DNA of 64,000 nt, taken from Balneolaceae bacterium (GTDB taxonomy: Bacteria > Bacteroidota > Rhodothermia > Balneolales > Balneolaceae). The notes beneath the pieces were generated by a model. It was not told the origin of the DNA. It did no database searches and saw only the letters and a program-made list of their open reading frames with translations. Below, in pieces: positions 30,998-43,921 of the stretch (its first letter is position 1; the number at the start of each line of letters is the position of its first letter). Position numbers and translations under genes: made by a program. Location: NCBI GenBank assembly GCA_017640665.1, contig JAEPQE010000002.1, positions 186,001 to 250,000 of the forward strand, given 5' to 3'.

Positions 30998-32308
30998 CTA
31001 CAACCCATACCTCTTTGCCATAGTTGATGACTTGGATGGATTCCAGACATCTTCATAAGAACGTTTGAAGAAGAATTCCTGGTAGTAGGCTGTAGTTCGT
31101 ACAAGCCGAAGATAAATTCCGGTATAGATGGTCATTAAAGGAATAAATTTAATCAGCTTCATCTCCTCTTTTTTCCGTTCTGTAAATAGTAAAATACTTC
31201 CCATCTGAACATAGCTCATTACCACATACAGTGTAAAATTCATCGGGATGATAAACTGCAACGAGGAGCTGTAATTGAAGATGATATCAATCATATACAC
31301 AATCCACATCAAATCGAGGATTACGTTATAGAACACATTTTCAAACAATGCGAAAAAGTTCGACCAGTTGAAGTTGGCATGAGGCATATACACATCCCGG
31401 TGTTTGCGTACTCTGAATCGGATAATGGATTTGTCCCATCTTAACCGCTGTTTGGTTAGTACTTTAAATTTCGACGGAGCATTGGTTAAACAAATAGCTT
31501 CCGGTTCAAAATGAATTTTATATCCGCACTTTCTGATTTTTACCGTGATATCTCCATCCAGTCCCGGGCCAATATCCCAACCTCCGATCTTGTCTAAAAT
31601 TTCAGGGCGGAATGCACCAAAAGCTCCGGATACGATCTTATAAATTCCAAGATAAGAAGTGATTATCCGACCCACAGAAACAGTTTTTAAATATTCAATC
31701 GCCTGAAGACTCGCACAGAGACTGTCATTATAATTCCTCACTTTCACGTTCCCTCCTACAGCACCAATCTTATCATCGTAGTAAAAAGGAATAACTACTT
31801 TTTCAATAGCGTCTCTGTCGAAGGAACAGTCGGCATCTAAGTGAACAATGAATTTCCCCTTTGCATAACGGAGTGCAAGATTAGCCGCAGAAGCCTTCCC
31901 TCCTCGTATCTCGTTCCTTATGAACATATCGATTAAGCCGAGTCGTTGCAGGTTTTTGCCTATGATCGGTGTTTCATCATCTGAGCCGTCATCCACAATG
32001 ATGAGTTCAAAATTCTGATAGGTCTGCTCGGCTAGTGATTTAGTAAGCTTAAAAAGATGAGCACCTTCGTTTTTCCCCGGAATAATGATGGAAACCAAAG
32101 GATTTTCCAGAAAGAAAGCTCTTCGTGCTTGCTCGAATTGTTCATTGTCGCTTTTCCGGGTTAGCCATTTAAAAAAAACGATGATGTAATCGATGATGAT
32201 GTATCGGGTAAACTCAAATAAACAAAAGTACCAGAACACTCTCAGGAACTTCTTGAACCCAACAGCAAACCAGTATTCAACATATTCGGGTGCCAGCTGC
32301 TCAAACAT
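30998..32308 (-). CDS. processive GT2 membrane polysaccharide synthase
   Basis: 436 residues. N-terminal hydrophobic segment (about 20-50), a cytosolic GT-A domain with VSIIIPGKNEG, VDDGSDDETP, DxD in HLDADCSF and the processivity motif KQRLRWDKS, then C-terminal membrane helices (about 310-400). This is the architecture of NodC, hyaluronan, PNAG and alginate (Alg8) synthases, which polymerise and translocate a glycan. Last gene of a unit with the dehydrogenase and TackOD1-like genes (4-bp gap). Polymer identity is unknown; a hexuronic or amino-uronic acid is plausible from the dehydrogenase. Confidence 0.88.
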   Translation of the reverse strand: MFEQLAPEYVEYWFAVGFKKFLRVFWYFCLFEFTRYIIIDYIIVFFKWLTRKSDNEQFEQARRAFFLENPLVSIIIPGKNEGAHLFKLTKSLAEQTYQNFELIIVDDGSDDETPIIGKNLQRLGLIDMFIRNEIRGGKASAANLALRYAKGKFIVHLDADCSFDRDAIEKVVIPFYYDDKIGAVGGNVKVRNYNDSLCASLQAIEYLKTVSVGRIITSYLGIYKIVSGAFGAFRPEILDKIGGWDIGPGLDGDITVKIRKCGYKIHFEPEAICLTNAPSKFKVLTKQRLRWDKSIIRFRVRKHRDVYMPHANFNWSNFFALFENVFYNVILDLMWIVYMIDIIFNYSSSLQFIIPMNFTLYVVMSYVQMGSILLFTERKKEEMKLIKFIPLMTIYTGIYLRLVRTTAYYQEFFFKRSYEDVWNPSKSSTMAKRYGL

Positions 32309-32312
32309 CTTC

Positions 32313-33692
32313 CTATCCGTTAGTCAGTTTAGAAATCAGTACTTCTACTGGATTATCAAATGTTCCGATTCCATCAGAAATCAGTTTTGAGATATTGTTT
32401 TGAATCAGCTTTCCGATTTTTTCAATACTCTCGGGAGTCTGATCATAGACTAAGAATCGATACCAAATGGTGCTGGGACTCGAAAGTACATCTGCCTTTC
32501 CCAGATAATTGGTTATAATTGCGCACATCTCTTTTTGAATGATTTCCTGTTGATCTACATGAAAACCGGACATGATCTCTGGATGAATTCGAACCGAACC
32601 TTCCCAGCTTAATTTCTCAGACAACCCTTCTCTTGAGATTTCCTGCTTTTTAAACAGTTCCAGAATTTGTTCGGAAACGGCATTAACTTTCCTGGGTTGT
32701 TCAGTTGCCCCCGTCTGTATATGAATTCCGTATTTAGCTGCTTGTTCTCCCAGTGGAGTTAATTCGTAAGAAGCTATTTCAATGTTACCGAGTTGTGATA
32801 GTTCATTATCCTTTCCACAGTCGATACACAACGCCTTGACCTCCGCTTGTTGGAACTGATGACTACAATCGTTGCAGGTGTGCATACTGGAAGGCTTATC
32901 ATAATCGATCCCAATATGACGCAACTCCTTATCACACTTCGGACATTCGAGCGCATCTTCTTTTTTATAATCCTGTTCGGGCGCAATGTGAGCACATAAA
33001 AAATGATGGATTAAATCTTCCGTTTTTAAATCTGCTGATCCACATTTTGGACAACACTCTCTGTAATTCAGATACCCTCCGGAGCATGTTCGGCAGGTAT
33101 GTGTTTTATCTTTCGTTTGTTTTACGGTGTACCCTTCTTCATACGATTTATTCAATATTTCGATAACCCGGGGTGCTTCTTCATCTTTTAATACAACGCT
33201 CAGAAATGGATACGCATATCCTATTTTTGAAGTTCTCGATCTGGCTGGCTCAAAAATCTGCTCTCTTGAATATGAAAACTGAAGAGCCGATTGTATTAAG
33301 GACTGAGTGTAATCCAGTTGATGAATTTCGTAGTTCATCTCCCTTAACTTTGCTTTGATGGATTTTAGCTGTTGCAGAATTACAGGCTTGGTATCGTCCG
33401 AGAAAACTCCATCAAACTGATACTTAATGGTATGGAGCTTTGATACCGTTGAACTGATGAAGACCGGTACAAGAGCATGTAACCGGTTTCTGTTTGATCT
33501 GATTATTCTGATAAGTTCTTTAGCTTCCTGACTGGTATTTGTCTGAACCAGAATTCCATCAATATTCTGAAGTGAATCAACATCCAGCTCCCCAACTCTG
33601 TTAATAACCAGCACATTCAGGCTTTCGTTATCAAAAGTAAGAGTTTTTGATGAGGAGTTTGGATGTTGTATGAGTTCAAACATGATATTCAC
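32313..33692 (-). CDS. degenerate receiver plus zinc-ribbon (TackOD1-like) protein of the polysaccharide locus
   Basis: 459 residues, soluble. The N-terminal 120 residues look like a receiver fold with strands (LNVLVINRVG, GILVQTN, LVPVFIS) but without a clear phosphoacceptor. The middle (about 165-300) is cysteine-rich: CRTC, CPKC, FLCAH, CPKC, CNDC and CIDC pairs, as in the thaumarchaeal output domain TackOD1. The C-terminal 150 residues are unassigned. It sits between the dehydrogenase and the synthase, with 4- and 22-bp gaps, where synthase-dependent systems often encode a regulatory partner. Family call is tentative; function unknown. Confidence 0.65.
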   Translation of the reverse strand: MNIMFELIQHPNSSSKTLTFDNESLNVLVINRVGELDVDSLQNIDGILVQTNTSQEAKELIRIIRSNRNRLHALVPVFISSTVSKLHTIKYQFDGVFSDDTKPVILQQLKSIKAKLREMNYEIHQLDYTQSLIQSALQFSYSREQIFEPARSRTSKIGYAYPFLSVVLKDEEAPRVIEILNKSYEEGYTVKQTKDKTHTCRTCSGGYLNYRECCPKCGSADLKTEDLIHHFLCAHIAPEQDYKKEDALECPKCDKELRHIGIDYDKPSSMHTCNDCSHQFQQAEVKALCIDCGKDNELSQLGNIEIASYELTPLGEQAAKYGIHIQTGATEQPRKVNAVSEQILELFKKQEISREGLSEKLSWEGSVRIHPEIMSGFHVDQQEIIQKEMCAIITNYLGKADVLSSPSTIWYRFLVYDQTPESIEKIGKLIQNNISKLISDGIGTFDNPVEVLISKLTNG

Positions 33693-33714: not shown

Positions 33715-35082
33715 TTAGAGGCTAAGGTAGGTTCCGTGAGAAACTTTGTCTTTAATGATGCCACGTACATCGAAGAAAATGGTATCTGAGTAAGAAATAG
33801 AATTGAAGTATGCTTCATCAAGCTCGTCGTACTCATCATGAGCAACTGCCATGATTACTACATCAAACTTACCTTCCTGCTCCTTTTTGCAATCGATTCC
33901 ATACTCATTATATACTTCTTGGCCATCAGCATGTGGATCTTCAACCTTGCTTTTGATACCAAATAACTCAAGTTTTTTTACTACATCAGCTACTTTAGAA
34001 TTTCGGATATCGCTAACGTTCTCTTTAAACGTGATTCCTTTTACCAGAACCGTACATGCTTTAGGATCTTTTCCAAGCTCGGTTAATTCTCTCTGTATTT
34101 TGAATGCGATATTATAAGGCATTCCATCATTGATGAATCTTGAACTTGAAATGACTCTTGGATCAACTTTTACTTGCTTTGCTTTATACGCCAGGTAATA
34201 AGGATCCACTCCAATACAGTGCCCCCCTACTAATCCGGGGAAGAATTTCAGGAAGTTCCATTTTGTACCAGCTGCTTCAAGTACGGCATTAGTATCAATA
34301 TCAAGTTTGTCGAAGATCAAAGAAAGTTCATTCATAAGAGCGATATTAACGTCACGTTGTGTATTCTCTATGATCTTAGAAGCTTCAGCAACTTTCATAC
34401 TGGCTGCTTTATGAATTCCCGCAGTAATAATGCTCTCGTACACCTTCGCTATTTGCTCAAGTGATTCTTCATCGCTTCCGGAAACCACTTTAGTGATATT
34501 TGTTACCGTGTGAACTTTATCACCCGGATTAATTCGTTCTGGTGAATACCCTACTTTGAAGTCTTCATTAAATGTTAATCCTGAAATTCTTTCCAAAATC
34601 GGAACACAAACTTCTTCCGTACATCCGGGATATACCGTAGATTCGAAAACTACATAATCTCCTTTCTTCAATACTTCGGCTACACTTGCAGTCGCTTTTT
34701 TCAAGGGAGTTAAGTTTGGCTCTCTGCGTTCATCAATGGGAGTTGGAACTGCAACTACATAAAATTCGGCTTCTGCAATTTGATTTATTTTAGAAGTGAA
34801 CCTGATGTTTTTGTTTTCAAATGCTTCACTGGATAATTCTTTGGAAGGATCAATTCCTTCTTTCATCATGTCCACGCGTTCGTCGTTTATATCAAAGCCG
34901 ATAACATCGAAGTTGTTTGCGAATTCTAAGGCGATTGGTAAGCCTACATATCCAAGGCCTACCATTGCCATTTTTGCTTCTCCAAGAGCCAATCTTGAGT
35001 ACATGCTGTTGTCATGTTTGATCAACCTTAAAGCAGGTGCTGAGGATTGAATTACATCTAGTTTTTTTGCTGTGTTGTTCAT
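33715..35082 (-). CDS. nucleotide-sugar dehydrogenase (UDP-HexNAc 6-dehydrogenase type)
   Basis: 455 residues of the UDP-glucose/GDP-mannose dehydrogenase superfamily, closest in pattern to TviB/WbpA. NAD motif VGLGYVGLPIALEF, catalytic Cys region GLVGGHCIGVDPYYLAYKA and the C-terminal UDP-binding domain (VADVVKKLELFG) are present. It oxidises C6 of a nucleotide sugar twice to make a uronic acid. First gene of its unit, preceded by a LytTR-type site and a good -7 box. It probably feeds the GT2 synthase two genes downstream. Confidence 0.9.
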   Translation of the reverse strand: MNNTAKKLDVIQSSAPALRLIKHDNSMYSRLALGEAKMAMVGLGYVGLPIALEFANNFDVIGFDINDERVDMMKEGIDPSKELSSEAFENKNIRFTSKINQIAEAEFYVVAVPTPIDERREPNLTPLKKATASVAEVLKKGDYVVFESTVYPGCTEEVCVPILERISGLTFNEDFKVGYSPERINPGDKVHTVTNITKVVSGSDEESLEQIAKVYESIITAGIHKAASMKVAEASKIIENTQRDVNIALMNELSLIFDKLDIDTNAVLEAAGTKWNFLKFFPGLVGGHCIGVDPYYLAYKAKQVKVDPRVISSSRFINDGMPYNIAFKIQRELTELGKDPKACTVLVKGITFKENVSDIRNSKVADVVKKLELFGIKSKVEDPHADGQEVYNEYGIDCKKEQEGKFDVVIMAVAHDEYDELDEAYFNSISYSDTIFFDVRGIIKDKVSHGTYLSL

Positions 35083-35119: not shown

Positions 35120-35127
35120 CAAACTTA
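35120..35127 (-). promoter_or_regulatory. -7 box TAAGTTTG of the dehydrogenase-synthase unit
   Basis: Exact TAnnTTTG on the minus strand. Its upstream edge is 30 bp from the nearer LytTR half-site at 35157, the same spacing as before the TolC gene. Confidence 0.65.
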
Positions 35128-35156: not shown

Positions 35157-35185
35157 TCGATGAACGGAAAGAATCTGTCGGTGAA
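35157..35185 (-). promoter_or_regulatory. LytTR-type regulator site 1 (before nucleotide-sugar dehydrogenase)
   Basis: Minus-strand half-sites TTCACCGA (35178-35185) and TTCATCGA (35157-35164), 21 bp apart. The nearer one extends to TCCGTTCAT, a full match to the published LytTR half-site [TA][AC][CA]GTTN[AG][TG]. Confidence 0.75.
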
Positions 35186-35220
35186 TGGTTTAATTGGAGA
35201 GATTCTTTGTTTTAGAATAG

Positions 35221-35252
35221 AAAAAGGCCGACCTGATATCATCAAGCCGGCC
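35221..35252 (-). terminator. intrinsic terminator after the DUF4114 lipoprotein gene
   Basis: Minus-strand stem GGCCGGC/GTCGGCC with one mismatch and a 13-nt loop, followed by TTTTT. It separates the DUF4114 unit from site 1. Confidence 0.85.
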
Positions 35253-35272
35253 CTGTTGTTTATGAGTGTCAG

Positions 35273-37237
35273 TTATTTTCTAATAAAATCTGACGTACTT
35301 ATAGATTCCGGATCTTCAGACGAAATCATAAAAATGGCATCATTAAAATCTTTATCTCCCTGCGGTAAAGCGATGTCCTCGAAAGCCAATACAATACTTG
35401 TGCAGCCTTCATCATAGAAGACAATACTTTGCTGGCGCTCACTTACATTGAATTCAGGGATCGTATATTGAGTGTAAATTCCATCAGTTATTTTGTTTCC
35501 ATTCCATCCGTTAGATATAACGAAGAATCCAATTACTGTTCCTTCTTCGAAATCTCCAAGAAGCTTCATGGTGTTACCCTGAATCAGATCACCACCTGAG
35601 TATTTAGCCGAAGCGTTCGGGAAAATTACGACTTTATTTAAGTCACTTATTTGTGATGGAGGGTTGTCTTTGTGGTAGTAATAATATCCCAAAGTATTTC
35701 GGTACCCTGCTCCCTCACTGATAAACGTCACATAAACCTTGTCATCTTTCAGAAGCTCGATTTCCCGGTTTGGATTGTCAAAGTATTCTGGATTCCTAAC
35801 GGTCACATTGCTTCGTTCAGGAAGTACGTTACGGAACAGGTTTGGGAGCAACTCACTACACACTTCAACATTTTTGGGCTCCATACCGTGAGGCACACCC
35901 TTAGAATCGAAACCGTATAAGGTCTGATGTTCACCTAATTTACCTTTTCGTAGAATTTTGAGCCCTTCTCCTCCTTTTGCTACAAATATCCACTCCCCAT
36001 CGGTAGTCATATAATTTGCAGATCCCGGTACTTCATTCATATCCCATTCAAATACAGACTGTAATTCTCCCGGATTCTCCGGCATATTAAACACAGATAT
36101 TCCGTCAGCACCGTTAGCGGTGTAGAGATAATCGAAATCGCTGGTTACTCCATTAATATTTCCTTTAGTTAAAATATTATCAGGAGTACGGAATACTTCT
36201 TCCTCAGTATAAATATCGAATCCTTTCAGACCTTCCAATCCCATAGTCACAAATACAGTTTCCGGGTGACGTTGAGCAAAATGGAGAGTGGATTTTCCCC
36301 GATAATTTAGTTCCACATTCTGATGAACTGCGGTACCAATTGGGATCGATCTTGATAAGGACTCGCTTCCTACAGGTTTTACTTTTAGTTCTGCACTGTC
36401 TCCTGTAACCAACGTTACAACTGACGATGCAAATGGAATACTTCCATTCGTAGCTACATATTTTGCGTCAGAATATTCTTCGGAATTCTTAAAACTGAGG
36501 TCATTTACGTTCAGAGTAAAGGTTCCACCATGAGTTTTTCCAGCAGTAATGTATAAATCGTTTCCTGATCTTACTACCCCATTCGCTGAAGCACTTACCC
36601 CACCTTCAGTAAATTTTGATAACGAAATATCTTTTACCTGATTGGAAATCAATCCATCTCTAAGACTAATCTGACGAACTACAGCCCCTTTATTCTTATG
36701 TGATAAAGCCAGCCAGATTTTCCGATAAAACTCATCTCCCTGGTAATCCGTTGTGATAGCGTTTACATCTGCATTATCAAAAAGAGCCTGACTAACAAGT
36801 TTTGGATAGGCTCTGTTCGTAAGATCAAAGACTTCAAGTCCGCCCAGGTGGATATCTCCCTGTTTATTGTAAGACACATAAGCTTTATCATCAACTACCT
36901 GAACATGAGTAGCACTTAGTTTAGACCCCTTAAATACCGGAGATTCTACCTCTGCTACGAAATACCAGTTATGATCTAACACTTCACTATTCTCAATAGT
37001 TGATGTTTGACTTACGGATTGAGCTGTTTTTTCCTTTGCTTCGGGATCGAAGATTTCAGCTTTTCCTGAATTGTTTACGACCAAAGGTTTATTGATGTAA
37101 TTAATCCTTGAGTTCAGAATTTCCTGATTATGCTCAAGAACTATTTTGTCTTCTGTGGATTCTTCAGAATCAAATGTCGGGCTACAAGCAGTAATCAAAC
37201 CTGATCCAACCAACAGAAATATTAGTTTTGTTTTCAT
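35273..37237 (-). CDS. DUF4114 lipoprotein with beta-propeller-like repeats
   Basis: 654 residues. Lipoprotein signal (hydrophobic 4-15, then TACS with Cys 18). About 80-440 holds repeated strand blocks typical of LVIVD/beta-propeller repeats (THVQVVDDKAYVSYN, GVTSDFDYLYTANGADGISVFNMP, GEWIFVAKGGEGLKIL). The C-terminus (about 535-645) is a DUF4114 domain (GTVIGFFVISNGWNG, LAFEDIALPQGDKDFNDAIF), often calcium-associated. A surface or periplasmic binding protein, perhaps retaining or shaping the exported polymer. Single-gene unit with its own LytTR site and terminator. Confidence 0.85.
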   Translation of the reverse strand: MKTKLIFLLVGSGLITACSPTFDSEESTEDKIVLEHNQEILNSRINYINKPLVVNNSGKAEIFDPEAKEKTAQSVSQTSTIENSEVLDHNWYFVAEVESPVFKGSKLSATHVQVVDDKAYVSYNKQGDIHLGGLEVFDLTNRAYPKLVSQALFDNADVNAITTDYQGDEFYRKIWLALSHKNKGAVVRQISLRDGLISNQVKDISLSKFTEGGVSASANGVVRSGNDLYITAGKTHGGTFTLNVNDLSFKNSEEYSDAKYVATNGSIPFASSVVTLVTGDSAELKVKPVGSESLSRSIPIGTAVHQNVELNYRGKSTLHFAQRHPETVFVTMGLEGLKGFDIYTEEEVFRTPDNILTKGNINGVTSDFDYLYTANGADGISVFNMPENPGELQSVFEWDMNEVPGSANYMTTDGEWIFVAKGGEGLKILRKGKLGEHQTLYGFDSKGVPHGMEPKNVEVCSELLPNLFRNVLPERSNVTVRNPEYFDNPNREIELLKDDKVYVTFISEGAGYRNTLGYYYYHKDNPPSQISDLNKVVIFPNASAKYSGGDLIQGNTMKLLGDFEEGTVIGFFVISNGWNGNKITDGIYTQYTIPEFNVSERQQSIVFYDEGCTSIVLAFEDIALPQGDKDFNDAIFMISSEDPESISTSDFIRK

Positions 37238-37266
37238 TTTAGTCTTATTTGTTATAGTTCAAGGCT

Positions 37267-37298
37267 AAAAAATCCTGTTTATTAAGCGATAACAGGAT
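37267..37298 (-). terminator. terminator-like hairpin between LytTR site 2 and the DUF4114 gene
   Basis: Minus-strand stem ATCCTGTT (37291-37298) and AACAGGAT (37272-37279), 11-nt loop, followed by TTTTTT. It lies where sites 1 and 3 have their -7 box, so it could be an attenuator or a second terminator for the upstream unit. Confidence 0.6.
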
Positions 37299-37303
37299 AA
37301 TTT

Positions 37304-37332
37304 TCGATGAACTGCATGAATCCTTCGATGAA
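37304..37332 (-). promoter_or_regulatory. LytTR-type regulator site 2 (before DUF4114 lipoprotein)
   Basis: Two perfect minus-strand TTCATCGA half-sites (37325-37332 and 37304-37311), 21 bp apart, 67 bp before the gene start. The best -7 candidate is TAGCCTTG (37260-37267), one mismatch, 37 bp away. Confidence 0.75.
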
Positions 37333-37341
37333 TGGTTTCAT

Positions 37342-37376
37342 AAAAAAAACCGGCTCATTATCCATGAACCGGTTTT
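37342..37376 (-). terminator. intrinsic terminator after the HlyD-like gene
   Basis: Stem AAAACCGG (37346-37353) and CCGGTTTT (37369-37376), 15-nt loop, T-run on the minus strand from 37345 downward. Ends the TolC-HlyD unit. Confidence 0.88.
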
Positions 37377-37405
37377 ATATACATCATTATATTTTTGATA
37401 CTGTC

Positions 37406-38443
37406 TCAGTAAAATCTTCCTATACTTACTTTTACCGACATCTTGTAGAACTGCTTCCATCCTTCCAAATCGTCTTCATTAAGCGGACTGATGTCTACTA
37501 AAATCGATCGCTCAGTGGGTTCATATTTCTTTTGAAATTCATCCGGAAGTTCATAAGTAGATACATAGTATTTTTTTATAACACCTTTTTGCTTAGTGCC
37601 ATCAGGGAATTCGATACTCACAATTCTTCCTATCTCTACCTTATCTGCTTCTTTTTGATTGAAATAAGCTTGAATACGTAGGTCCTGAGGTTGGTGTATA
37701 GTCATTACTTCATCCCCTTTATAACAAACTTCATTTTCTTTAACGCTAATTCTCCCTATTAACCCATCAGTTGGTGCTACATACAGCTTCCTTTGACTCC
37801 CTCCACCACCGGTCCAGGCAGAACTACTGTAGTCTTTTTTTAATTGTGAAAGTTGATCTATATGGCGAATCAGAAACCTGATTTCTTCTTTTACTAATTC
37901 AAGATCATCTTCAGTTGTCCCAATTGCCCGCTGTTGATCATCAAAGGAGTTTCTTGTTATGGCAGCAAGAGTAATCAGCTCTCTGATCTTTTCGAGTTCG
38001 AACCGTTGAGTTTCCAGTCTTTCTTCCAGAATTGAACGCTCTGTTCTCTTTTCATTTAATTGGCGGGTAAGCCCAAATATCTCCCGATTAACTCGTTCCC
38101 GGTTAGCAATTATATTTGCATAAGTAGCTCCGTCATTCTCAAAATACTGATTGGTGTATGAAAACAGAGTATCTCCTTTTTGAATACTTGCTCCTTCTTC
38201 AATTTGTAATCCATTCAGGCGAATATCATCAGTGAAATGAACTTCAAGTTTATCCATCGTAACCATTCCATCAATCTCAATAACCGCGATCCCTTTGTAC
38301 AACTTAAAGCTCCCGTATAATGCTATAATCACAAGCAGAAGGATAAATAATACCCGGTCTGTATTGAGCTTCTTTTTCTTTTTTTCAGGCTCTTTGAGGT
38401 GACGAATCGTTGCATTTCCTTGTTTAAAGCTGAATTGTTCCAT
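37406..38443 (-). CDS. HlyD-family membrane-fusion adaptor (Alg44-like candidate)
   Basis: 345 residues: a basic cytosolic start (EPEKKKKKLN), one membrane helix (about 30-48), the first half of a lipoyl domain, a long helical hairpin (about 105-215), then the second lipoyl half (LYVAPTDGLIGRISVKENE) and a beta-barrel (IVSIEFPDGTKQKG). Overlaps the TolC stop by 1 bp (TAATG). No ABC, MFS or RND pump is encoded here, so its partner may be the GT2 synthase, as the membrane-fusion part of Alg44 serves alginate export. That pairing is inference. Confidence 0.85.
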   Translation of the reverse strand: MEQFSFKQGNATIRHLKEPEKKKKKLNTDRVLFILLLVIIALYGSFKLYKGIAVIEIDGMVTMDKLEVHFTDDIRLNGLQIEEGASIQKGDTLFSYTNQYFENDGATYANIIANRERVNREIFGLTRQLNEKRTERSILEERLETQRFELEKIRELITLAAITRNSFDDQQRAIGTTEDDLELVKEEIRFLIRHIDQLSQLKKDYSSSAWTGGGGSQRKLYVAPTDGLIGRISVKENEVCYKGDEVMTIHQPQDLRIQAYFNQKEADKVEIGRIVSIEFPDGTKQKGVIKKYYVSTYELPDEFQKKYEPTERSILVDISPLNEDDLEGWKQFYKMSVKVSIGRFY

Positions 38444-39714
38444 TATTCAACCTCCTCAAAGGCACTCAACATCACTGGCGATGTATATTCCAGATAATGT
38501 GTTATTTCGTTATCGGGAAGCAGTACATTCATTTTCACAAGTATCTGCATCATTTGTTTACTAAGTGATATTTCTTCAATCTTCAGCGATAGTAAGTCGT
38601 CCTGAAGTAGTGATGCATCAGTAGCTGGTAATTCAGAATTCATACTCTGTTTATGAATCTGTTGAACTCTGAATTTTTCCTCTAAAATTTTAGTAGTAGA
38701 AATGATATTAGTTAGCTGTTTCTCTTTGTACACGTATTCCTGATACAGCACCAGTAATTCCTTTTTCAGATTAGCGACTAAATAGAGATGTTCTTCCTCA
38801 ATTTTCTTATTGGCCAGTTGGTATTTCTGCTTCTTTAAACCCGTAGTTCTGTGAACAGGTACTGAAATACTTACTCCTGCAGACACAAAATCTCTTCTGG
38901 ATTCCACAAAGCTAACCTGATGATTATAATTCAGAGAAGCTTTAATGATTACTTCTTCTGCCCAAAAAACTGGCTCCTTGTTAATTCTTTTTTGCGCATC
39001 TATACTCGATTCTAAAAACTGACTTTGATCGATATCATTAAGGATTTCAGCAATGGAAATAGAAGGAATTTCGATTTCTTCATCCCCCGAAAAAATCAAA
39101 GGATTTCCGAATATGGAGATGAAAGCCTGATTCGATTGAGAAATATTCTTCGTCTGGAAAGAAACTTCATTTCGCCGTTTTTCAAGTTCCAGCACCTCCT
39201 GATTGGTGAAATAACCTTCTTTTCTGAGCGAACTGAACAACCTCTGTTTTGTTTTGAGTAATTCTTCCCTTGATAGATACACATCTAACAGTAGGTTGTC
39301 GTAGAGATATGCTGTTAATGAATACTGAGCATAATATGCTCTGGCCTTTGATTCTTTTTCAGAGTTGATCGCTTCTAATCTGGCTATTAGATCTAGTTGA
39401 TCCGCTTTCGATTGATTTTGATACCAACCTCCTTTCAACAAGTTCCAGCTCAAACCTGCCTTATAAAAAGTCTGAGCATTGTTCTCTGTTAAATCAGCTT
39501 CTATAAATCCTTCCCCAAATCGATGCTGTGCTGATGCATTAAAGGATAAGCCATAATCATTTCGATAGATTTCGGACTCAACGTTATATTCATTGACTAT
39601 TAACTGACTTTTTTCTGAAGCTCCGAAGTCGAGTATTTCTCTTATTAATTCTTGTCCTGATATTTCAGTCTGAATCAGAGCAGAGAATAAAATGGTTATA
39701 ATAATCCGGTTCAT
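38443..39714 (-). CDS. TolC-family outer-membrane channel
   Basis: 423 residues with a signal peptide (1-20). Long alternating helices and short strands as in outer-membrane efflux proteins; YKAGLSWNLLKGG and SAGVSISVPVHR are strand segments with the usual pattern. First gene of a two-gene unit with the HlyD-like adaptor. Preceded by LytTR site 3 and an exact -7 box. It would be the exit duct of the export system. Confidence 0.88.
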   Translation of the reverse strand: MNRIIITILFSALIQTEISGQELIREILDFGASEKSQLIVNEYNVESEIYRNDYGLSFNASAQHRFGEGFIEADLTENNAQTFYKAGLSWNLLKGGWYQNQSKADQLDLIARLEAINSEKESKARAYYAQYSLTAYLYDNLLLDVYLSREELLKTKQRLFSSLRKEGYFTNQEVLELEKRRNEVSFQTKNISQSNQAFISIFGNPLIFSGDEEIEIPSISIAEILNDIDQSQFLESSIDAQKRINKEPVFWAEEVIIKASLNYNHQVSFVESRRDFVSAGVSISVPVHRTTGLKKQKYQLANKKIEEEHLYLVANLKKELLVLYQEYVYKEKQLTNIISTTKILEEKFRVQQIHKQSMNSELPATDASLLQDDLLSLKIEEISLSKQMMQILVKMNVLLPDNEITHYLEYTSPVMLSAFEEVE

Positions 39715-39730
39715 GATGTATGTTTTTATT

Positions 39731-39738
39731 CAAACATA
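39731..39738 (-). promoter_or_regulatory. -7 box TATGTTTG of the TolC-HlyD unit
   Basis: Exact TAnnTTTG on the minus strand, 30 bp from the nearer LytTR half-site, 17 bp before the start codon. Confidence 0.65.
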
Positions 39739-39767
39739 AACCGGAATAAGATGCTACATGAGATTCT

Positions 39768-39796
39768 TCGATGAAATGCAGAATGCTGTCGGTGAA
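39768..39796 (-). promoter_or_regulatory. LytTR-type regulator site 3 (before TolC)
   Basis: Minus-strand half-sites TTCACCGA (39789-39796) and TTCATCGA (39768-39775), 21 bp apart. Located 23 bp after the stop of the LytTR regulator gene itself. Confidence 0.75.
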
Positions 39797-39819
39797 AGGA
39801 ATTTCAAGACCGATTAACC

Positions 39820-40503
39820 TTAGAGCATATTCAGTTTACTCAGTAAGGTCTCTTTGTTCCCGCGACTAATTGGGATGATCTCCTCAGCAATCAGGATACT
39901 GTTATCCTCAATATCTACAATCTTGTTTAAGTTGATGATATAAGAACGATGGACTTTCAAAAAAACAGACCCGGGTAGTTTCTCTTCTATCTTCTTTAAA
40001 GTGATATGAACCGTATGCTTTTTGTCTTCTGTTTTAATTTGTACATAATCGCCCTTAGCCTCGATAACCTGAATATCATCAAAGTTTAGCTTAACCAGCC
40101 TGGAGTTGATATTTACAAAGATCGAATCTGCCTTAACCTCTTCAGCAGAGTTTGATTTTTTAGTTTTCAGTTTATCCAAAGCCTTAAGAAAACGAGGCAT
40201 TGTTATGGGCTTAACTAAATAGTCAATCACATTGTATTCAAAAGCCTCAAGAGCGAAACTGGTATCTGTCGTAGTCATAATTACATCAGGTAGCTCAGAA
40301 ACCGATTTTACAAACTCGGCTCCTGTTAATTCGGGCATATGGATGTCCAAAAAAATAAAATCCAGATCAGTATTTTGAATAAAAGACAATGCGTCAGCAG
40401 GGTTTTCAAACTCACTTAGTACCTTAACAGAGCCCGTTTTTTCACAGAGTTTTTTAAGCGCCATTCTTGCGGTTTGTTCATCATCAATGATTATGCAATT
40501 CAT
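39820..40503 (-). CDS. LytTR-family response regulator
   Basis: 227 residues. Receiver domain 1-120 (IIDDEQTA, FLDIHMPELTG with Asp about 53, LVKPI) and a LytTR DNA-binding domain about 128-227 (IQVIEAKGDYVQIKTED, FLKVHRSYIINLNKI). LytTR proteins bind pairs of 9-bp direct repeats one or two helical turns apart, which is what the three nearby intergenic sites show. Last gene of the phosphorelay run; overlaps the HPt gene by 4 bp. Confidence 0.95.
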   Translation of the reverse strand: MNCIIIDDEQTARMALKKLCEKTGSVKVLSEFENPADALSFIQNTDLDFIFLDIHMPELTGAEFVKSVSELPDVIMTTTDTSFALEAFEYNVIDYLVKPITMPRFLKALDKLKTKKSNSAEEVKADSIFVNINSRLVKLNFDDIQVIEAKGDYVQIKTEDKKHTVHITLKKIEEKLPGSVFLKVHRSYIINLNKIVDIEDNSILIAEEIIPISRGNKETLLSKLNML

Positions 40504-41177
40504 ATCATATTCTCCAGCTCAGTTGCTGATTTTTTCAATTCTGAAGTTAGATATCCAACTTCACTTTCAAATTTAGTCCAACTATCAAAAGATTTAGTTT
40601 TAGCTGTATATTCAAGGTTTTCAGACAATTCATCAATAGATAAAATTCCAAATGTTCGGATTTTAGTCCTTAAAGCATGAATCGTTTCAGCTATTTTTTT
40701 AAAATCTTGATTCTTAACAGCGTCAAGTAAAACATCAATTTGGTCAGGGACTTCTTTAAGAAACACCTTTACCATTTCTCTCTTAAAATCTTCATCTCCA
40801 TCCGAAAGTTCATCCAGATAACTAAGATCAAGTGAAGAATCGTTTTCTTTTACCGATGTTCCTTTAATCATGCTTTCAAGATCATCTTCTTTGATAGGTT
40901 TCAGATAAAAGTGATCGGTATCAATTTTCAATTTTGATTGTAAAGATGGAGATAATTTGCTTCCGCTCACATAGTATACTTCTATAAACCCTGAGTAATC
41001 TGGTTCTTTTCCAGGTACGTAACAGTCTCTTATCAATATGGAATCGCCTGATATGTTCAGTGAATCCAGTTCATCCAGCGATTCCATAATAGTAACACTA
41101 GAGAGGCCCATTTTTTTTATTAGCCTTTTAAAGGCTAGCCGGTCAAATTCACTATCGTCTATATAAATAATCTCCAT
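40500..41177 (-). CDS. receiver-like plus HPt phosphotransfer protein
   Basis: About 225 residues from ATG 41177 (an earlier ATG at 41195 would overlap the upstream gene). The N-terminal 105 residues are a diverged receiver (IIYIDDSEFDR, ILIRDCYVPG, FYLKPIKEDDL) that still has an Asp in the usual place. The C-terminal half is an HPt four-helix domain with the phosphorylatable His in AETIHALRTKIRTFG. It would pass phosphate between the CheY-like receiver and the LytTR regulator. The 1-bp gap and 4-bp overlap with its neighbours show tight coupling. Confidence 0.85.
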   Translation of the reverse strand: MEIIYIDDSEFDRLAFKRLIKKMGLSSVTIMESLDELDSLNISGDSILIRDCYVPGKEPDYSGFIEVYYVSGSKLSPSLQSKLKIDTDHFYLKPIKEDDLESMIKGTSVKENDSSLDLSYLDELSDGDEDFKREMVKVFLKEVPDQIDVLLDAVKNQDFKKIAETIHALRTKIRTFGILSIDELSENLEYTAKTKSFDSWTKFESEVGYLTSELKKSATELENMI

Positions 41178-41178
41178 A

Positions 41179-41601
41179 CTAGGTTGCCAGCTCACTGATA
41201 TCCCAATAATGTTTCATGGTAGAAAGCATCTCCAGAAAGTCGCTGTATCTAACCGGCTTAACCATGTACCCTGCTGCTTGCCTTTCAAACCCTTTTAATT
41301 TATCAGAAGGATGTTTTGAGGTAGTCATTATAACAACCGGAATCATTTTAAGAACTTTGTCTTCCTTTACTTTTTCTAAAAACTCGAACCCATCCATAAT
41401 CGGCATATTCAAATCAAGTAATATAAGACCAGGTAAATTATCCTGATTTTCCATTAGCCAGGCTAGTCCTTCCTTTCCGTTTATTTTCGAAACCAAAGTA
41501 TTTTCAAACCCAAGCTTTTGGAAGGCCCTTTCTACTTTTTTTATTTCCAGCGCACTGTCTTCAAGAAGTAAAACTGATCTCTGATTTTTCATATGTTTCA
41601 T
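41179..41601 (-). CDS. CheY/Rcp1-like single-domain response regulator
   Basis: 140 residues, receiver only: LLLEDSALE, phosphoacceptor Asp in LILLDLNMPIMDG (about 61), Thr in VIMTTSKHP and Lys in YMVKPV. The EF-like insertion after beta-3 is as in Rcp1 proteins that serve PAS/GAF kinases. Its start overlaps the 3' end of the kinase gene by about 40 bp. Probably the first phosphate acceptor of the relay. Confidence 0.92.
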   Translation of the reverse strand: MKHMKNQRSVLLLEDSALEIKKVERAFQKLGFENTLVSKINGKEGLAWLMENQDNLPGLILLDLNMPIMDGFEFLEKVKEDKVLKMIPVVIMTTSKHPSDKLKGFERQAAGYMVKPVRYSDFLEMLSTMKHYWDISELAT

Positions 41602-43921
41602 TTTTTGGAAGGGTAAAGAAAAAAGTCACTCCTTTTTCTGTATTATTTTTGAACCAAATTTTCTGTCCATTATTCTCAATAATTTTTTTCACAATAGATA
41701 AGCCAATACCGGTAGAATCTTCATTTTTGTTATTGGCTTTTGCAAACAGATCAAACACATTCTCTCCAATTTCTTCAGAAATACCCTGCCCATTGTCTGA
41801 AATGCTGAAATGCCATTTTCCTTTTTCCGGGTGACAATTAATTTCTATCAATCCCGACTCGCTATCCATAAATCTAATCGCATTTGAAATCAGGTTTTGG
41901 AAAACCTGAGTTAATTGAATCCTGTTAAATAGAACAGTAGGTAACTTTTCCTGAGTCTTTATACTAATGTGTTCCGGAACATCCAGATTATTAATGCAGG
42001 TTTGTACCAATTCATTACAGTCTATTTTTTCATCCAGTTCCTGTTGACCAGAGGTAGTTGAGTAGGTGAGAATACCTTCAATCAGTTCATCCATTTTCTC
42101 GACATTATCGATAATCAGATTAAGCGTCTTTTCGCCTTCTTCATCAAGTTTATCACCATAATCTTCAATCACCCATTCACTTAACGAACTTATGGCTCGG
42201 AGTGGAGCTTTTAAATCATGAGAAACAACATGAGCGAATTCCTGAAGCTGATCGTTAACAACTTTAAGTTCGTTCAAGAGCCTTTCTCTCTTTTCTTCCT
42301 CCTTTTTCTTTTCTGTGATATCTCTTGCTATCGTTTGAATCGCTTTCTTGTTGTTATAGATAACAGGACTGGAGGTCACCTCAATTATTTTACGATTGTT
42401 TTTAAATGTAATAATCTCAAATTCAATGGATGGAACCTTCTTACCCTCTTGTAGTAATCTTAACCGATTCTCAAATTCAGGTTTCAATTCTCGGGTAGAC
42501 AAATCTATCAGATCTTTCCCTAGTATTTGATCTAATGTCTCAGCTTCATATAATTCTAATCCAGCAGGATTGAGATAAACGATTCTTCCCTTTTCTGTAA
42601 TCTGGATAGCTTCGGGCTGATTATCTACCAACTTATGCCAACGTTCTTCACTATTTCGTAGTAATCTTTCAGCTTCTTCTTTTTGTTTATTTACAATTGC
42701 ATTACTAAGCTGAGTTGAAACCATATTAGCAATAGTTGTTAAAGTCTCTAGGTGTTCCTGGGTATAAAAATTCTTTTCCGGATGTTCGGAATCAATCACC
42801 CCTATTACTTTATTGCCTTCAATAATTGGAACGCATAATTCGGAATATCTCACATTATCATCTACAATATATTCCGGATCATTAGAAGTATCATCTACTA
42901 TTACAGGAGCTCCGATTTTAGCAACACGGCCTACAACCCCTTTTCCTATTGGAATGGAAATAGGATCCAATATTTCGTCCTCCTCTGCTTTTTTGGGTCC
43001 ATAAGCAGCAAGCTGATGCAATAATTGGGTTTCTTCATCCAGGATATACACTATACAATCCTCAAAACCGAGTTTTTCAATGGTATTCTTAGCAATTTCC
43101 CATGCAACTTCTTCAAGAGTAGTTTTACCTAAAAGGTTAATTGCTAAATCATTAACGGCTTTTAGTAACCGCTCCGATTTTTTTTTCTCCGTGATATCTC
43201 TCACAAACGAACTGAAGAAATAGACTCCATCAATTTTATTTGGGATGATGGTTAATTCGACAGGAAATTCAATCCCGGTAGCATTAATGGCGGTAATTTC
43301 AATACGTTGGTTTAATACCGGACCTTCTCCTGTATTTAAAAAGTGCTTCATCCCTCGTTCATGAGCTTCCCGGTATTTTTGTGGGATGATGGTTTCGGAA
43401 AGACGTTTGCCTAATGCCCGTTGCTTACTCCATCCAAAAGTAATCTCTGCTTGTTTATTCCATTCTGTTATGATCCCTTTTTCATTAATTACTATAACTG
43501 CGTCTAGCGCAGAATCAATAACAGACTGAAGTTTGGTTTCGCTTTCTGATAATAGATGTTCTACAGAGCGTAATTTAGTAACTGGTCTTGCTACTCCAAA
43601 AAAGCCTTTCGGATTGCCCCCTTCATCTTTATATAAATTCGTAGTCTGGCCTACCCATACTTCATTACCAGAGCTCGTTTTAATAGGAAATTCAAAATAA
43701 TCTGATAACCTCTGGTTACTAAGAACTTCTTTAAAGTGATTGCGTGTGTCTTTTTGTTTGCTTTCACTTACAAAATCAGTGAAATGTCTTCCTATGATCT
43801 GATCAGATTCTAATCCCAATAAGCGCTCCATAAAGTGATTTACAAACGTAAATTCACCTTTAAGAGAACAAAAGAACATGATGTCTCCGGAGATATTTGC
43901 TATGTGCTCAAAAGATTTCAA
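41561..43921 (-). CDS. cytosolic PAS-PAS-GAF-PAS sensor histidine kinase
   Basis: 786 residues from TTG 43921; no in-frame ATG lies between an upstream stop and this start. Domains: PAS (about 1-115), PAS (125-245), GAF (255-410), PAS (420-540), coiled coil, HisKA with phosphoacceptor His in VVSHDLKAPLRAI (about 570), and ATPase with N box FQNLISNAIRF, G1 DNGQGI and TGIGLSIVKKII. No membrane helix, so it reads internal cues such as redox, light or small ligands. No attached receiver: that function is in the next gene. Confidence 0.94.
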   Translation of the reverse strand: MKSFEHIANISGDIMFFCSLKGEFTFVNHFMERLLGLESDQIIGRHFTDFVSESKQKDTRNHFKEVLSNQRLSDYFEFPIKTSSGNEVWVGQTTNLYKDEGGNPKGFFGVARPVTKLRSVEHLLSESETKLQSVIDSALDAVIVINEKGIITEWNKQAEITFGWSKQRALGKRLSETIIPQKYREAHERGMKHFLNTGEGPVLNQRIEITAINATGIEFPVELTIIPNKIDGVYFFSSFVRDITEKKKSERLLKAVNDLAINLLGKTTLEEVAWEIAKNTIEKLGFEDCIVYILDEETQLLHQLAAYGPKKAEEDEILDPISIPIGKGVVGRVAKIGAPVIVDDTSNDPEYIVDDNVRYSELCVPIIEGNKVIGVIDSEHPEKNFYTQEHLETLTTIANMVSTQLSNAIVNKQKEEAERLLRNSEERWHKLVDNQPEAIQITEKGRIVYLNPAGLELYEAETLDQILGKDLIDLSTRELKPEFENRLRLLQEGKKVPSIEFEIITFKNNRKIIEVTSSPVIYNNKKAIQTIARDITEKKKEEEKRERLLNELKVVNDQLQEFAHVVSHDLKAPLRAISSLSEWVIEDYGDKLDEEGEKTLNLIIDNVEKMDELIEGILTYSTTSGQQELDEKIDCNELVQTCINNLDVPEHISIKTQEKLPTVLFNRIQLTQVFQNLISNAIRFMDSESGLIEINCHPEKGKWHFSISDNGQGISEEIGENVFDLFAKANNKNEDSTGIGLSIVKKIIENNGQKIWFKNNTEKGVTFFFTLPKNETYEKSEISFTS

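Follow-up and report, generated by a model that had tools for sequence, protein, structure and literature searches.

Candidate LytTR operator repeats at three promoters of a predicted exopolysaccharide gene cluster in Balneolaceae

How a polysaccharide gene cluster might be switched on is the question raised by a 64-kb stretch of DNA (the window) from a 3.8-Mb Balneolaceae genome. Its minus strand, to which all positions refer, carries in this order genes for a PAS/GAF histidine kinase, a receiver, an Hpt protein, a REC-LytTR regulator, a TolC-like protein, an HlyD protein, a DUF4114 lipoprotein, a dehydrogenase, a TackOD1 protein and a GT2 synthase (Table 1). A preliminary description had reported three exact TTCAYCGA-N13-TTCAYCGA repeats on this strand, all of which were recovered (35157-35185, 37304-37332 and 39768-39796). 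It had placed them 54-75 bp before start codons, in agreement with the 53 nt (TolC), 66 nt (DUF4114) and 74 nt (dehydrogenase) counted here from the end of the proximal half-site, and had located a LytTR regulator gene 23 bp from site 3, where the stop codon of that gene (39820) indeed lies. A strong terminator-like hairpin immediately precedes each of sites 1 and 2, so that each of the three sites opens a transcription unit of its own. We consider it very probable that a phosphorelay-driven LytTR activator, encoded at 39820-40503, controls these three units for an acidic amino-sugar exopolysaccharide.

Published LytTR sites consist of two 9-11 nt repeats, direct or inverse, with 11-13 nt between them (PMC4847170), and the window repeats fit this definition at 3/3 sites, with 9-nt cores 21 bp apart and 12 nt between. 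The half-site is longer than TTCAYCGA and reads about ACCATTCAYCGA. One half-site of site 1 had been described as a full match to the quoted LytTR consensus, which is of AgrA type, and TCCGTTCAT does agree at 9/9 letters, the remaining five half-sites agreeing at 7-8/9 in one common register. The present case fits the known class of LytTR sites. Triple half-site arrays like that of site 3 were also seen at L107 and L099.

Base composition predicts about 1.5e-4 exact pairs for the window and 0.009 for the genome, the latter being a post hoc expectation, as the motif had been read from these very sites; three were found, and the exact repeat occurs at only these three places in the genome, in line with the earlier judgement that chance was unlikely. 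With up to three mismatches the window held eight matches (2.2 expected), a number reached in 0/100 shuffles. Full genomes were scanned by pattern searches with reversed-pattern controls, which ruled out the motif as common background: the extended pattern CMNTTCRHCGA-N10-CMNTTCRHCGA, at up to two mismatches, gave three matches each in the own genome and in the congeners G039 and G040, all in the cluster. Matches to the repeat with one mismatch in the own genome numbered three, all inside coding sequence, and no copy was found in viral contigs. When different promoters within a genome are compared, identity is 77-81% in the half-sites, against 56% in the spacer and 27% in the upstream flank.

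The sigma-A promoter consensus of Bacteroidota has TAnnTTTG at -12 to -5 (PMC9723704). This box is exact at sites 1 and 3, 29 nt past the proximal half-site in both, so that the equal distance noted in the preliminary description stands, and it is degenerate at site 2. An exact TAnnTTTR box starting 29 or 30 nt past the proximal half-site was found at 18/45 sites, with a maximum of 4 in 2000 shuffles. If the box lies at -12 to -5, the repeat has its centre at about -58 and its proximal half-site stops at about -42, which would be a usual place for an activator that touches the polymerase. The promoters retain the -7 box and have no obvious -33 element.

It is this geometry that bears on the sign of regulation. 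Repressor sites usually overlap the core promoter, whereas the present sites end near -42, upstream of it, and keep a fixed phase of 29-30 nt to the -7 box, as would suit a polymerase-contacting activator; repression of the three promoters by the regulator is hence distinctly unlikely, even though the sign is not provable from position and some response regulators are generally known to act both ways.

Activation by the LytTR regulator would lead one to look for the sites wherever the regulator is kept. All three are conserved in G040 (matching CP051242, the Balneolaceae metagenome-assembled genome ih13) and present in G039, with a degenerate distal half at site 2; in Rhodohalobacter (G068, matching Rhodohalobacter sulfatireducens) the TolC site is conserved and the dehydrogenase site weak. 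G034 was left out of this judgement, its contig starting 52 bp before DUF4114. Further relatives were collected via TackOD1 (80 named loci), and a half-site matrix trained on Balneolaceae only was applied to ten Flavobacteriaceae clusters with a 48-55% identical LytTR gene, including those of Tenacibaculum, Spongiivirga, Seonamhaeicola, Flavicella and Winogradskyella. Sites were found in 10/10 of these, oriented with the gene and preceding the receiver/kinase operon, TolC, dehydrogenase and DUF4114 genes. With the half-sites 21 bp apart the mean best matrix score was 27.1 (24 matches); it fell to 17.4 at 22 bp (7 matches) and to between 5 and 13 at the remaining spacings (0-5 matches). No 21-bp peak appeared in 30 TackOD1 clusters without LytTR, nor in nine further loci, eight with a more distant LytTR and one a second Tenacibaculum cluster without LytTR (L101), from which the motif is absent. 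A motif copy outside the polysaccharide cluster was seen before a FIST-domain gene in L205 (Tenacibaculum).

The encoded regulator scores above the Pfam cut-offs of both Response_reg and LytTR and is thus a LytTR response regulator, its best NCBIfam match being BtsR, under the BtsR cut-off. The phospho-acceptor Asp53 lies in FLDIHMP and is invariant or nearly so across four Balneolaceae orthologues. Maximum-likelihood analysis grouped the LytTR proteins of the cluster in a single clade (95/95), to which none of the genome's 21 other LytTR proteins belongs. Within it, a sub-clade (95/95) comprises the loci that bear the motif and, in addition, the motif-less L169. In the sister clade, of Saprospiraceae and Prolixibacteraceae, CCAAAAATCGA repeats stand at 21 bp with nAnnTTTG mostly 29-30 nt downstream. 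Since the core of that clade is A-rich, loose counts are high at neighbouring spacings too, and the claim is based on near-exact matches, mostly at the cluster, together with the phase of the box. Searched over whole genomes, three of the four Saprospiraceae have their near-exact copies at the cluster, and the fourth has them partly elsewhere; none was found in the Prolixibacteraceae genome at the same stringency. The site core and the regulator clade thus appear to change together. We give even odds to the proposition that Balneolota and Bacteroidota have both retained a promoter module in which two half-sites 21 bp apart precede TAnnTTTG at a fixed 29-30 nt, its core shifting with the regulator clade from CCATTCAYCGA to CCAAAAATCGA, and that this module controls an exopolysaccharide system in which the GT2 synthase is paired with an uncharacterised REC-like/TackOD1/degenerate-GGDEF protein.

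The core is shared by a second LytTR system of the family. Nine other Balneolaceae genomes (L226-L234) have one exact repeat each, placed 64-70 nt ahead of an operon for a lipoprotein and LytS; in 8/9 a LytTR gene was found downstream, and most of the promoters have a TTTG element at equal phase. The operon thus resembles the present cluster in TTCAYCGA-N13-TTCAYCGA and the phased element, and differs in its LytTR group, its LytS-type kinase and its apparent autoregulation; its regulator, at only 38% identity, is nearer to other paralogues of the own genome, and the lipoprotein has no recognisable copy in the window genome. These operons independently tie the repeat to LytTR proteins. They also account for most of the exact family matches outside the window genome, which were checked as possible noise: 9/17 precede lipoprotein-LytS operons, one lies in the cluster of G040, 6/17 are inside open reading frames and one is unplaced (L055). 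A genome search had been suggested earlier, with hits limited to promoters of export and polysaccharide genes as the expectation; confinement to the cluster held for the extended motif in the own genome, G039 and G040, but the repeat is not exclusive to such genes.

An alternative is that the repeats have nothing to do with LytTR, and instead bind some other factor, belong to a mobile or REP-like element, or arose by chance. This is highly improbable, for no copies lie elsewhere in the genome, orientation and promoter phase are common to the sites, the motif is absent without LytTR, two separate LytTR systems carry it, and its place upstream of the -7 box puts it outside the leader RNA of these promoters. 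That the repeats would serve as LytTR operator sites is strongly supported by the comparison of genomes, and the earlier proposal of a local regulon defined by LytTR-type sites likewise gains from their confinement, their conservation and their absence without LytTR.

Which LytTR protein would bind is a separate matter, and several findings weigh against our interpretation. The window genome has 22 LytTR domains, so that another such protein could bind, and a distant paralogue group in relatives shares the TTCAYCGA core. Site 2 is without an exact -7 box, having the degenerate one only, the -7 phasing in Flavobacteriaceae is weak at the dehydrogenase and receiver promoters, and the sites within G068 and within G039 are not equally strong. 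The notion that the motif goes with the LytTR gene at orthologous promoters holds for G040, G039, Rhodohalobacter and the ten Flavobacteriaceae clusters, and for its absence without LytTR, but L105, L109 and L169 retain a LytTR gene in the cluster and no motif is detectable there. A shared regulon, in which a different LytTR protein of the genome, such as one of the LytS-partnered group, is the main or an additional binder of the sites, would draw on the many LytTR domains and on the nine relatives in which the repeat heads a lipoprotein-LytS(-LytTR) operon. We deem it unlikely: the extended, CC-containing motif is confined to the cluster in the window genome and two congeners, and the sites track the cluster LytTR over two phyla, those of the sister clade changing with its regulator. 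Letters next to the core, which is preceded by ACC in the polysaccharide cluster, may distinguish the sites of the paralogues. Because paralogues share the core, the adjacent regulator is considered likely, and not more, as the main binder.

With this regulator as activator, we infer from the domains that phosphate would pass from the PAS/GAF histidine kinase to the receiver, on to the Hpt protein and finally to the LytTR regulator. Once phosphorylated, the regulator would bind as a pair to the two half-sites, 21 bp apart on one DNA face, and would recruit RNA polymerase to the promoters with the -7 box, by which TolC-HlyD, the DUF4114 lipoprotein and dehydrogenase-TackOD1-GT2 would be activated. 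Together, the three units would make, export and hold the exopolysaccharide.

Comparison with known systems yields partial likeness only. YpdB (PyrR) and BtsR of E. coli are REC-LytTR regulators as well, and the YpdB site is a direct repeat of GGCATTTCAT (PMC4847170), of which the proximal half of site 3, GCATTTCAT, matches 9/10 letters; they have membrane LytS-type kinases and transporter targets, whereas here a PAS/GAF kinase, a receiver and an Hpt protein are joined to a polysaccharide cluster. AlgR of Pseudomonas aeruginosa controls algD and binds CCGTTCGTC (PMC4064291), which the proximal half-site of site 1 matches at 8/9 letters, and there, as presumably here, a LytTR regulator acts on the promoter of a nucleotide-sugar dehydrogenase for an acidic exopolysaccharide. 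However, AlgR sites lie at -470, -394 and -45 (PMC4064291), with no tandem 21-bp repeat near -58; that layout of far-upstream CCGTTCGTC sites and one near -45 was not found here, where tandem 21-bp repeats end 29 nt before the -7 box, and AlgR-algD serves as an analogy, not as a class to which the cluster belongs. AgrA of Staphylococcus aureus has the LytTR domain with the FhRhHRS motif (PMC4227749), which reads FLKVHRS here, Lys replacing the first Arg, and the quoted AgrA-type consensus is matched by the window half-sites at 7-9/9; its quorum-sensing kinase and targets, phylum and promoter type are different. To map the base-contact residues of AgrA, Protein Data Bank sequences were searched with the single domain; AgrA was not among the matches, and the specificity residues were compared by eye only.

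Table 1. Positions of the repeats, promoter boxes, hairpins and genes in the window.
Feature	Position	Strand	Remark
PAS/GAF histidine kinase	41561..43921	-	Pfam
Single-domain receiver	41179..41601	-	Pfam
Hpt phosphotransfer protein, receiver-like N-terminus	40500..41195	-	Pfam Hpt 3.7e-7; receiver-like start by eye
REC-LytTR response regulator, proposed activator	39820..40503	-	Pfam LytTR 3.1e-21, Response_reg 1.3e-19
Third, weaker half-site AGGTTAATCGG, 21 bp upstream of site 3	39810..39821	-	overlapping 2-mismatch match 39789-39817
Site 3, TCCTTTCACCGA-N9-GCATTTCATCGA	39768..39800	-	TolC-like gene 53 nt downstream
-7 box TATGTTTG, 29 nt after site 3	39731..39738	-	
TolC-like outer-membrane protein	38443..39714	-	no Pfam match; assigned from position and preliminary description
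HlyD-type membrane-fusion protein	37406..38443	-	Pfam HlyD_3 6.8e-9
Terminator-like hairpin between HlyD gene and site 2	37346..37376	-	13 pairs
Site 2, ACCATTCATCGA-N9-GCAGTTCATCGA	37304..37336	-	DUF4114 lipoprotein start codon 66 nt downstream
DUF4114 lipoprotein	35273..37237	-	Pfam 1e-12
Terminator-like hairpin between DUF4114 gene and site 1	35224..35254	-	14 pairs
Site 1, LytTR-type direct repeat, ACCATTCACCGA-N9-TCCGTTCATCGA	35157..35189	-	dehydrogenase start codon 74 nt downstream
-7 box TAAGTTTG, 29 nt after site 1	35120..35127	-	
Nucleotide-sugar dehydrogenase	33715..35082	-	nearest NCBIfam TviB (UDP-N-acetylglucosamine (GlcNAc) C6 dehydrogenase), below cut-off
TackOD1 protein	32313..33692	-	Pfam TackOD1 2.7e-52; predicted C-terminal GGDEF-like fold, residues 332-459
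Processive-type GT2	30998..32308	-	nearest NCBIfam PgaC/IcaA, below cut-off

As to the product, the GT2 scored 166 bits with the PgaC/IcaA poly-GlcNAc synthase equivalog of NCBIfam (cut-off 422) and the dehydrogenase 463 bits with that of TviB (cut-off 592), both falling short, while the general subfamily cut-off for NDP-sugar (nucleoside-diphosphate-sugar) dehydrogenases was reached by the latter. Proteins that bind sugars in a calcium-dependent way have been reported to contain DUF4114 (PMC9109919). The site-bearing gene beside LytTR in the sister clade is GlmS-like (SIS and glutamine amidotransferase), an enzyme that would feed UDP-GlcNAc synthesis. The simplest reading of the target genes is that their product would be an acidic amino-sugar exopolysaccharide.

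The function of TackOD1 has been termed obscure (PMC5847659). Residues 332-459 of the predicted model align with 4zvf (Z 13.3, root-mean-square deviation 2.9, 125 aligned), which points to a GGDEF-type fold; the catalytic signature GG[DE]EF is absent from the sequence, the N-terminus has no match to the receiver profile, and some alignments with PleD/WspR cover the whole model. It may be a dead PleD/WspR-like protein beside a polysaccharide synthase. Among the 80 TackOD1 loci (L097-L176), nearly all have GT2 directly after and usually HlyD before, which suggests that TackOD1-GT2-HlyD loci form a widespread uncharacterised polysaccharide system. In other Balneolaceae (L088-L096) the receiver-TackOD1 fusion is intact and is accompanied by GT2, HlyD and, in most cases, TolC, but by neither LytTR nor the 21-bp motif; in Rhodohalobacter a single contig bears clusters of both types. 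The idea that receiver-TackOD1 fusion and LytTR control simply replace each other found no support, as many Bacteroidota TackOD1 proteins have neither a recognisable receiver nor a nearby LytTR.

No LytTR binding site or regulon for Bacteroidota or Balneolota was found in the open-access literature searched, most subscription journals lying outside its coverage. LytTR regulators are abundant in these bacteria, with 22 domains in this genome alone, and the present result supplies a site, a regulator, a promoter geometry and target operons, for which the second system and the sister clade are built-in comparisons. It suggests a switch-on route for the widespread, unstudied TackOD1 polysaccharide cluster; and if the module is true as proposed, the clade-wise changes of its core would offer a natural series from which the LytTR recognition code could be read.

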